Below, one piece after another: positions 139 through 60,320 of a DNA stretch of 64,000 nucleotides. This DNA comes from Fusarium oxysporum f. sp. lycopersici 4287 (Eukaryota; Ascomycota; Sordariomycetes; Hypocreales; Nectriaceae). The stretch lies in contig NC_030990.1 of NCBI RefSeq assembly GCF_000149955.1, positions 1,178,001-1,242,000 on the forward strand, in the 5' to 3' direction. The notes under the pieces are model-generated. The model was not told the DNA's origin and did not search any database. It saw nothing but the letters and a program-made list of their open reading frames with translations. Position numbers and translations under genes: made by a program. Within the stretch, counting starts at the first letter, position 1. Every line of letters starts with the position of its first letter.

Positions 139-257
139 ACATACGACCATACCTACCAGAAAATACGGGATCCCGTCCGCTCTCCCATAGTCAAGCTGGT
201 AAGGGGCGGATTAGTAGTTGGGTCGGTGACGACCAGCGAATCCCCGCTGTTGTATGT
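139..257 (+). rRNA. 5S ribosomal RNA gene, dispersed copy
   Basis: The 119-nt segment begins ACATACGACC and ends GTTGTATGT, so the terminal ACATAC/GTATGT helix is intact. It contains the conserved 5S blocks GGGATCCCGTCCGCTC, TAGTCAAGC and TAGTAGTTGGGT, followed by GACCAGCGAATCCC. Helix II pairs CCTACCAG with CTGGT(A)AGG, including the usual bulged A. The sequence of that helix looks unlike the fungal 5S sequences I know, yet it is fully paired, so I read it as a functional variant. Single dispersed 5S genes are the known arrangement in filamentous ascomycetes. A T run follows immediately, as expected for Pol III. Confidence 0.93.
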
Positions 258-263
258 TTTTTT
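257..263 (+). terminator. Pol III T-run terminator of the 5S gene
   Basis: Seven consecutive T residues directly follow the 3' end of the 5S sequence, the standard RNA polymerase III termination signal. Confidence 0.85.
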
Positions 264-2246: not shown

Positions 2247-2256
2247 TAAAAAAAAA
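2220..2256 (-). terminator. Long T tract downstream of tRNAi-Met copy 1
   Basis: On the + strand this is a run of about 27 A, one T and 9 A. It begins nine bases beyond the 3' end of the leftward tRNA at 2265, so on the tRNA strand it is an unusually long oligo-T. It would act as a strong RNA polymerase III terminator. A homopolymer tract of this length is also prone to sequencing and length error. Confidence 0.7.
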
Positions 2257-2264
2257 GAATACCA

Positions 2265-2384
2265 TAGCAGCTACTGGTTTCGATCCAGTGACCTCCGGGT
2301 TATGAGCCCGGCTGGGATGAGTTAGTTTTGTAGATTTCGATGGAGCTTGTTAAACATACCGCGCTTCCACTGCGCCAAGCTGCT
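2265..2384 (-). tRNA. Initiator tRNA-Met (CAU) copy 1, with GT-AG intron
   Basis: Exon 1 is 2384-2360 and exon 2 is 2311-2265, giving a 72-nt mature tRNA. Acceptor arms AGCAGCT/AGCTGCT pair perfectly, with discriminator A. The D stem is GCGC/GCGC, the anticodon stem CCGGG/CCCGG closes loop CTCATAA (anticodon CAT), and the T stem is ACTGG/CCAGT. Initiator hallmarks are A at position 1, three G:C pairs at the base of the anticodon stem, and loop ATCGAAA in place of TTCGANN. The known Neurospora initiator tRNA has the same architecture. The 48-nt insert lies between positions 26 and 27, not at the standard 37/38 site. CCA is not encoded. Acceptor and T stems differ from the other two copies by compensatory pairs. 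Standard tRNA finders would probably miss this gene. Confidence 0.88.
2312..2359 (-). other. Spliceosomal-type intron inside tRNAi-Met copy 1
   Basis: The 48-nt insert starts GTATGT, has AACTAAC as a branch-site match and ends CCCAG, with ten nucleotides from the branch A to the acceptor. Removing exactly GT...AG rejoins G26 to C27 and restores the anticodon stem. It has no helix resembling a bulge-helix-bulge tRNA-endonuclease substrate that I can see. Splicing by the spliceosome is inferred from these signals. Confidence 0.75.
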
Positions 2385-2688: not shown

Positions 2689-2812
2689 AGCAATTTGGCG
2701 CAGTGGAAGCGCGGTATGTTTCTCTACAATATGCATCAGTTGGCCAATGATACTAACAGACGCAGCCGGGCTCATAACCCGGAGGTCGCACGATCGAAAC
2801 GTGCAATTGCTA
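2689..2812 (+). tRNA. Initiator tRNA-Met (CAU) copy 2, with GT-AG intron
   Basis: Exon 1 is 2689-2713 and exon 2 is 2766-2812. The mature 72-mer has acceptor AGCAATT/AATTGCT, D stem GCGC/GCGC, anticodon stem CCGGG/CCCGG with loop CTCATAA, and T stem GCACG/CGTGC with the initiator loop ATCGAAA, all fully paired. The mature sequence is identical to copy 3 at 60 kb and differs from copy 1 only in covarying acceptor and T stems. The insert of 52 nt lies between positions 26 and 27. The gene diverges from copy 1, with 304 nt between the two 5' ends. A 7-T run (2819-2825) follows. The 5' flank CACCAGGAA resembles the flanks of the other copies. Confidence 0.9.
2714..2765 (+). other. Spliceosomal-type intron inside tRNAi-Met copy 2
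   Basis: This 52-nt insert begins GTATGT, has a perfect TACTAAC branch sequence and ends GACGCAG, nine nucleotides beyond the branch A. Length and signals match the introns of the protein-coding genes in this window. The last 14 nt, ACTAACAGACGCAG, are shared with copy 3, while the interior is unrelated. Confidence 0.8.
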
Positions 2813-2818
2813 GGTTTC

Positions 2819-2825
2819 TTTTTTT
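2819..2825 (+). terminator. Pol III T-run terminator of tRNAi-Met copy 2
   Basis: Seven T residues begin seven bases after the tRNA 3' end, as expected for RNA polymerase III termination. A second T-rich block follows within ten bases. Confidence 0.75.
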
Positions 2826-35135: not shown

Positions 35136-36611
35136 ATGGCCCAACCTACATCAAAAGAATCAACACTAACAATGTTTGAACTACTAAAGCCTGCTGCCGC
35201 TGAAGCCGGTGTTGCTCGGCTTGGTCGTCTAGCATTCGCTGGTAATCGAAGGATTATGCAGACACCAAACTACATCGCTGTTGCATCTCGAGGAGTTGTT
35301 CCTCACTTGACTCCAGACAATGTCACCAAGCACACAACATTTGATGCCGCATATCTAGCAATCGAGGACTGTATGAAGATGAAATCTATTTTTGAGCGCT
35401 AGTCTAACTTTGAGAACAGTTCTCGAGAAATCACAACCTCCTGTTCTTCAGCTGCCCCACTGGCTATGGCTGGATATACTGCTTCGCTTGGTACCTACAT
35501 CTCACCTGAAGGGATAAAATCACACCATAGCCCGAAGACCCACACTCATTTGTTCCCAGCTGTGACAACACCTGTTGGAAACGGTGCTCATCATGTCAGC
35601 ATTTTTACCTCTACCGGTTTCCGCAATCTCACTATCCCCGAGTTTGCTAAGACTATTGAACTCACTCAACCAGATATCGCCATTCCTCCAGCTGACCTTT
35701 TCCACTCCAGCTCAACGCCAACATCAAAACGTCAAATTCGCATGGTTGAGAGAACCGAAGAATGGGTTGATGAATTCTTTCATCTCTCGGACCCTAAGGG
35801 TCGTCTAAAAGAGATGGGTGTTTCCATCTTTGCTCCTGTATTGCCTGTTGAGTACCCTATACAGTGGGACTACTTGCGGTATCTTGCAGAAGACGTTCGA
35901 GACTGCCTTTCTGGTCTTGCCGTTTATGATGTTAACCTTGTCCCCGAGTTGGTGAACTATCCCTCTCTTGGATCTCTGCCGCGGTTGTCATTTGGGCCAT
36001 CTAAGAGCCCCCAGGACATTCTGCGACAGATCGCTCTCGGTATCGATATATGCACGGTACCTTTCGCCAACACCGCCTCCGATGCAGGCATCGCCCTATC
36101 GTTCACCTTCCCACCCCCCGAGTCCTCCGACATGCAGCCACTGGGTATCGATATGTGGTCAGAGGAGCATACAACATCCCTGCAGCCTCTAGTGAACGGT
36201 TGCCAATGCTACACTTGCACCAAGCATCACCGGGCATTCATCAAGCACCTACTGAATGCGAAGGAGATGTTGGGCTGGAACCTACTCCAAATTCACAATC
36301 ATGCCATTCTCACTTCATTCTTCGAAGGCGTTCGAGCAGCTCTAAACGAGAGTGCTGAGAAGTTTGACGAGCTTCACAAGAAGTTCTTGACTGTTTACGA
36401 GCCCGAGGTCCCTGCTGGAACTGGAGTGAGACCCCGAGCCAGGGGTTACCACTTCAAGAGCATAGCTGGTCAGACTAAGATCAACGAGCCTAGTTGGCAA
36501 GCGTTTGATTCGGTCGATGCCAGTCCCCACCCCGAGGCCATCGCAGAACCTCTCGCAGCTGTCGATGGAACACTGCCCGTCGATGAGGTTGCACCGAGTT
36601 TGGAGAAGTGA
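35136..36611 (+). CDS. Queuine tRNA-ribosyltransferase accessory subunit (QTRT2-like), 464 aa, junction uncertain
   Basis: The model joins exon 35136-35370 to 35452-36611, using donor GTATGA, branch GTCTAAC and acceptor TTCAG. The N-terminus (MFELLKPAAAEAGVARLGRL, TPNYIAVASRGVVPHLTPDN) and C-terminus (VNGCQCYTCTKHHRAFIKHL with zinc-ligand pattern C-x-C-x2-C...H, then NLLQIHNHAILTSFFEGVR) match the non-catalytic TGT subunit. That subunit pairs with QTRT1 to insert queuine at tRNA position 34. An alternative acceptor at 35419 would encode LEKSQPPVLQLP, which fits the family better, but that frame reaches a stop at about 35514 and does not join the downstream frame. The gene may carry a frame error between about 35,450 and 35,550. 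Confidence 0.75.
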
Positions 36612-60186: not shown

Positions 60187-60306
60187 AGCAATTTGGCGCA
60201 GTGGAAGCGCGGTATGTCTACCATTATCTGCACATAAAAATCCTTACTAACAGACGCAGCCGGGCTCATAACCCGGAGGTCGCACGATCGAAACGTGCAA
60301 TTGCTA
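60187..60306 (+). tRNA. Initiator tRNA-Met (CAU) copy 3, with GT-AG intron
   Basis: Exon 1 is 60187-60211 and exon 2 is 60260-60306. The spliced 72-nt sequence is identical to copy 2: AGCAATT/AATTGCT acceptor, GCGC D stem, CCGGG/CCCGG anticodon stem with loop CTCATAA, and GCACG/CGTGC T stem with loop ATCGAAA. The insert is 48 nt and sits between positions 26 and 27, as in the other two copies. The 5' flank CACCAAAGAA parallels those of copies 1 and 2. A 7-T terminator follows at 60,314-60,320. Identity of both exons with copy 2, despite a mostly unrelated intron interior, argues for selection or gene conversion acting on the mature RNA. Confidence 0.9.
60212..60259 (+). other. Spliceosomal-type intron inside tRNAi-Met copy 3
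   Basis: This 48-nt insert starts GTATGT, has a perfect TACTAAC branch match and ends GACGCAG. Exact removal restores the tRNA. Only the two ends are shared with copy 2. Confidence 0.8.
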
Positions 60307-60313
60307 AATTTCC

Positions 60314-60320
60314 TTTTTTT
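60314..60320 (+). terminator. Pol III T-run terminator of tRNAi-Met copy 3
   Basis: A seven-T run lies eight bases after the tRNA 3' end. Confidence 0.75.

Follow-up and report, generated by a model that had tools for sequence, protein, structure and literature searches.

Splicing of tRNA, carried out at position 37/38 by an endonuclease and a ligase, and splicing of mRNA, carried out by the spliceosome, are taught as separate pathways. The introns of eukaryotic and archaeal tRNAs are described in the tRNAscan-SE 2.0 paper as removed by the endonuclease, with one intron per eukaryotic gene. A review (PMC4090602) reports tRNA introns outside 37/38 in archaea, including position 25/26, in Cyanidioschyzon and in nucleomorphs. 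The non-canonical introns of archaea and C. merolae depend, in its account, on motifs of the bulge-helix-bulge (BHB) type and on the endonuclease, and the nucleomorph tRNA introns of Guillardia, 3-24 nt in length, are removed by a mechanism that it gives as unknown; the review makes no use of the word spliceosome. Among small structured RNAs, U3 and U6 are named in the relevant section of PMC5832005 as the only ones known to be often interrupted by introns.

Here we describe initiator tRNA-Met (tRNAi) genes of Fusarium that are interrupted at position 26/27 by a short insert with the signals of mRNA introns. The gamma-tubulin complex protein encoded in the window analyzed is 100% identical to a database cluster named Fusarium odoratissimum and at most 97% identical to the remaining Fusarium proteins listed; we assign the genome to the Fusarium oxysporum species complex. 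The analysis started from a 64,000-nt stretch of DNA (the window) and from an earlier note made on its letters, which placed at 2689-2812 a tRNAi gene with a 52-nt insert, GTATGT...TACTAAC...CAG, between positions 26 and 27, and stated that exact GT-AG removal yields a fully paired initiator tRNA. The insert is present as described, and its removal leaves a 72-nt RNA with 21 of 21 cloverleaf pairs. The earlier note reported this gene only. It is real (copy A), and the account of a single gene has to be widened: a repeat search brought the number in the window to three (copies A, B and C), and the genome contains four beyond those. The A- and B-box regions and the T-runs appear intact by eye in all three window copies, which are laid out as follows in window coordinates.

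2689-2812, + strand: copy A, whole gene
2689..2713, + strand: copy A 5' exon, 25 nt, tRNAi positions 1-26, with the A-box region within (box by eye)
2714..2765, + strand: copy A intron, 52 nt, with GTATGT at 2714-2719, TACTAAC at 2751-2757 and CAG at 2763-2765
2766..2812, + strand: copy A 3' exon, 47 nt, tRNAi positions 27-73, with the CAT anticodon and the B-box region
2819..2825, + strand: 7-T run after copy A, probable Pol III terminator
2265-2384, - strand: copy B, whole gene
2360..2384, - strand: copy B 5' exon
2312..2359, - strand: copy B intron, 48 nt, GTATGT...AACTAAC...CAG
2265..2311, - strand: copy B 3' exon
2248..2256, - strand: 9-T run after copy B, probable Pol III terminator
60187-60306, + strand: copy C, whole gene
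60187..60211, + strand: copy C 5' exon
60212..60259, + strand: copy C intron, 48 nt, GTATGT...TACTAAC...CAG
60260..60306, + strand: copy C 3' exon
60314..60320, + strand: 7-T run after copy C, probable Pol III terminator

Copies A and B are divergent and 304 bp apart. A 5S rRNA gene (Rfam, 92.6 bits) at window 139-258 lies about 2 kb from this pair, and a queuine tRNA-ribosyltransferase domain (E 6.8e-41) is encoded by an ORF at window 35403-36611.

Across the whole assembly (61,243,666 bases, 71 contigs) we found seven tRNAi genes: contig C5 has four, and C10, C11 and C12 have a single gene each. The four on C5 fall within about 106 kb (1180296-1285882). Each of the seven has an insert of 48-53 nt at 26/27 with GTATGT, CTAAC and YAG, the branch A lying 9-12 nt from the intron end, and each is followed downstream by a T-run. 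None of the introns contains TTTT; absence of an internal TTTT is a requirement for a Pol III transcript.

Ordinary tRNAi genes elsewhere had been named in the earlier note as evidence that would speak against its reading, and none was found in the assembly with junction, 5'-half or 3'-half patterns. The intronless tRNAi junction, with up to three mismatches, had no match in the whole assembly. The 3'-half pattern, also with up to three mismatches, returned these seven genes only (reversed control, 0), and the 5'-half pattern returned the same seven exactly together with 15 weaker matches. Three of the weaker matches are genes for tRNA-Arg, which lack an insert at this position; the other 12 have no evident tRNA downstream, and ARAGORN, run on one of them (L151), found none. 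The CGGGCTCATAACCTG places, found as one-mismatch matches, were considered as a second tRNAi family and rejected. The search counted 109 places, of which 23 among the matches listed were examined (L015-L037); these have no flanking tRNA exons and are mostly near-identical repeats, and the stricter 3'-half pattern covers the rest. The sequence CGGGCTCATAACCTG, which differs from the tRNAi anticodon arm by a single base, sits in a many-copy, near-identical repeat, whose copies among the matches listed are mostly on contigs C3, C6 and C14.

Joining the exons gives a 72-nt tRNAi with 21/21 cloverleaf pairs in all seven genes. When the excised stretch was slid along the precursor, full pairing was obtained only at the GT-AG register or one base earlier (7/7), and the latter register yields an identical RNA product. 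The exons exist in three versions, with acceptor stems AGCAATT or AGCAGCT and T stems GCACG, ACTGG or ATCAG; since all three are fully paired, the stems have changed by compensation. All seven spliced genes carry the marks of a eukaryotic cytoplasmic initiator tRNA. They have a CAT anticodon and GGG/CCC beside the anticodon loop, which we take to be such marks in addition to two published ones. The published marks, present in 7/7 as well, are A1:U72, from the survey section of the tRNAscan-SE 2.0 paper, and A54 in place of T54; the T loop of spliced copy A reads ATCGAAA.

Restoration of the host RNA by GT-AG removal, the behavior expected of a U6-like intron, is seen in the 21/21 pairs and in ARAGORN, which names every spliced gene tRNA-Met(CAT); the RNAfold minimum counts against it. 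In 7/7 this minimum for the spliced, unmodified RNA has just 12 cloverleaf pairs out of 21, and the full cloverleaf lies 0.2 kcal/mol above it. For the precursor, the minimum has all 21 pairs in five genes and 16 and 17 in the remaining two. One speculation is that the insert holds GCGCG and CC apart and so prevents mispairing of the D and anticodon arms during folding. The unspliced genes escape correct recognition by gene finders: when long introns are permitted, ARAGORN assigns a wrong identity to all seven, and neither its default run nor scans with the Rfam tRNA model found any tRNA in the window.

The inserts closely resemble the mRNA introns of the genus. According to the intron statistics in PMC5677156, based on 2022 introns from four Fusarium species, 91% have the branch site CTRAY and 93% the 3' site YAG, the median length is 57 nt (range 42-529), and the base following the intron is a purine in 59%. 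In the tRNAi genes, the 5' site conforms to the U2-type GTRNGT and the intron ends in AG (GTATGT and YAG, 7/7), a CTRAY branch site is found near the 3' end (CTAAC, 7/7), and the length of 48-53 nt is within the range of 42-529. The second exon starts with C, unlike the 59% of Fusarium introns that are followed by a purine, which counts against the resemblance. GTATGT would be expected in about 10% of introns (a product of the base frequencies in PMC5677156, computed here), so its presence in 7/7 indicates that, of the 5' sites permitted, all the tRNAi genes use the same one.

Given the base composition of the introns, the joint chance of the three signals is about 2.7e-8 per copy. GTATGT...TACTAAC...AG occurs at two places in the window, both of them tRNAi genes, and not at all in 100 shuffles. 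A looser intron pattern gave 13 rows in the window, whereas random sequence gives 1.95 on average; on a hand recount, these are the three tRNAi introns and ten others at eight distinct places, with the 5' sites GTAAGT (five), GTATGT (two) and GTAGGT (one). The intron interiors have a mean identity of 0.54 (gaps counted), compared with 0.49 (sd 0.06) in shuffles. Identity is at least 0.60 in 5 of the 21 intron pairs and 0.58 in a sixth, the 95th percentile of the shuffles being 0.58. As the interiors have drifted nearly to background and the signals have been kept, the signals look selected. The seven copies thus share an ancestry that their interiors have mostly lost and their signals have retained, and because the copies are related, 7/7 does not amount to seven independent gains.

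U6 is a Pol III product, and mRNA-type introns in U6 were the precedent to which the earlier note appealed. This precedent holds in the same genome. A U6 search, in which 47 of 3779 candidates were scored, identified two genes, on C4 and C7, the latter with a score that its inserts push under the family cut-off. Both are interrupted by mRNA-type introns, at three different sites altogether:

L068 1559-1615, - strand: C4 U6 intron, 57 nt, GTAGGT...CACTAAC...TAG, after ACAGAGAAGAT
L069 1491-1539: C7 U6 intron 1, 49 nt, GTGAGT...GCTAAT...AAG, after ACGATACAG, ACAGAGA region
L069 1572-1622: C7 U6 intron 2, 51 nt, GTAAGT...TACTAAC...TAG, after AAGGATG

Once spliced, the C4 and C7 genes contain an identical 45-nt U6 core.

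Other tRNA genes were surveyed by scoring 63 of 2201 candidates in the genome. Of 17 tRNA stretches, 13 were viewed and nine bear introns, all nine in the anticodon loop, 12-39 nt long and none starting with GT; some of the ARAGORN identities and junctions in this sample are doubtful. At L166 and L169, one gene called tRNA-Met(CAT) probably encodes tRNA-Ile(TAT), and another, Ser-like, was called Cys(GCA); ARAGORN places the intron differently in these, and the corrected identities are our reading. A search for other tRNAs of this kind, made with one pattern that required GTATGT, CTAAC and then a GTTCGANTCC T arm, had no match; the pattern is blind to other 5' sites and T arms, and the tRNAi genes are unusable as its positive control. 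A guessed pattern for elongator tRNA-Met gave one chance-like match.

The insert could be a tRNA-type intron in a non-canonical place, removed by the tRNA splicing endonuclease with tRNA ligase joining the exons, as happens with unusually placed introns in archaea and red algae. Two matches to the tRNA_int_endo domain in the genome, the nine anticodon-loop introns described above and the archaeal introns listed at 25/26 (PMC4090602) are all in keeping with such a route. The BHB motif has a 4-bp central helix between two 3-nt bulges, with helices flanking. At the tRNAi junctions the central helix could form 3 of its 4 pairs in 7/7, but the outer helix reaches 2/4 and the inner 0-1/4 in every gene, and these values mean that no bulge-helix-bulge is present. 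The position is 26/27 in all seven genes and not the canonical 37/38. Predicted precursor folds have no intron structure common to the copies, and the window introns A-C are no more stably folded than shuffled sequence (z 0.03, 0.64 and 0.37). Removal by the endonuclease would moreover leave the conserved GTATGT, CTAAC and YAG unexplained, and we consider it very unlikely. The spliceosomal-type intron proposed in the earlier note is supported by the mRNA-intron signals and length, by their conservation in 7/7 around a drifting interior, and by the lack of both a BHB and an excess of folding.

Two further explanations were weighed. The seven could be inactive copies, the ordinary tRNAi genes being situated in sequence missed by the assembly or by our searches. 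An assembly in 71 contigs may be incomplete, and our DNA searches pass over simple repeats and words of very high frequency; yet the three exon versions keep 21/21 pairs by compensatory changes, along with T-runs and splicing signals, and the 3'-half pattern finds nothing beyond these seven. A hidden ordinary set is, in our judgment, a distant prospect. The tRNAi might also be embedded in a Pol II transcript, be spliced there and be freed by RNase P and tRNase Z, which would allow the usual capped, co-transcriptional recruitment of the spliceosome. Against this arrangement, to which we give little credence, stand the A- and B-box regions and T-runs intact by eye in the three window copies, the T-run after all seven genes, and the mRNA-type introns that U6 carries in this genome as a Pol III product.

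Our preferred reading, which we place at a probability of roughly 85%, is that a Pol III pre-tRNAi is matured by the major spliceosome. The seven genes would be working cytoplasmic initiator tRNA genes, each transcribed by Pol III from the internal A and B boxes that flank the insert, with transcription ending in the T-run. The resulting precursor would measure 120-125 nt, leader and trailer apart. In the nucleus, the major, U2-type spliceosome would act on it, with U1 at GUAUGU, U2 at CUAAC and ligation at YAG, and would join G26 to C27 to form the 72-nt tRNAi. The intron would be removed before export, and end trimming and modification would come afterwards. Uniformly strong signals would suit an RNA that has neither a cap nor a Pol II tail. 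We infer transcription by Pol III, removal by the spliceosome and the ensuing dependence of translation initiation from sequence features. Probably, all of the initiator tRNA of this fungus comes from a Pol III pre-tRNA that the major spliceosome processes, and the U6 of the spliceosome is itself made in like manner.

The arrangement may be restricted in its distribution. In the tRNAscan-SE 2.0 survey of 173 eukaryotic genomes, from which incomplete fungal ones were excluded, six are reported without a CAT-type tRNA, and all six gaps were traced to mislabelling of tRNAi. On this account fungi in general are unlikely to have the feature, unless misnaming or intronless copies mask it. For Aspergillus niger, the relevant part of PMC6108506 gives two Met tRNA genes without an intron, initiator or elongator not being stated. 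Scanning of viral contigs gave one match, which has no tRNA exons around it. A tRNAi D-arm word was found in 71 stretches of viral contigs (72 matches), with CTCATAA within 170 nt in 5 of the 72; three of these five are tRNAs without an insert, one (L089) being of the eukaryotic initiator type. Patterns for an intron-bearing tRNAi had no match in the viral contigs or in the genome contigs of the collections, which comprise viruses and prokaryotes and therefore say little on fungi. The earlier note knew of no tRNA matured by the spliceosome, and among open-licence papers, a body of literature to which preprints and most subscription papers do not belong, we too found no nuclear tRNA described with a spliceosomal intron.

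In all genes found, and in a well-studied genus, one essential tRNA appears to have crossed over to mRNA-type splicing. If this is true, initiator tRNA would become the first class of tRNA known to be matured through the mRNA splicing pathway. Splicing capacity would then gate translation initiation and, via U6, the renewal of the spliceosome itself, and a block of the spliceosome should directly stop translation initiation. A presumably uncapped RNA would have to reach the spliceosome and be spliced before export.

The tRNAi introns share features with each of the described systems. Like the canonical introns at 37/38, they interrupt a nuclear tRNA gene between its A and B boxes, and they differ in their position at 26/27, their length of 48-53 nt and their splice signals. 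With the introns that PMC4090602 lists for archaea (25/26), Cyanidioschyzon and nucleomorphs they share a place outside 37/38, but unlike those of archaea and C. merolae, they do not form a BHB in any of the seven Fusarium genes. In 5' site, branch site, 3' site and length they fit the consensus that PMC5677156 reports for the U2-type mRNA introns of Fusarium; the host here is a tRNA, which presumably lacks a cap and is transcribed by Pol III. The closest parallel is with fungal U6, in which a short GT-AG intron with a branch site likewise interrupts a small structured RNA of the same genome, made by Pol III in the case of U6 and presumably here. The host there is a spliceosomal snRNA; the tRNAs, to which the host here belongs, are not named as a class in the relevant section of PMC5832005. 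The tRNAi genes would thus extend the mRNA-type introns of small Pol III RNAs, already known, to a tRNA.
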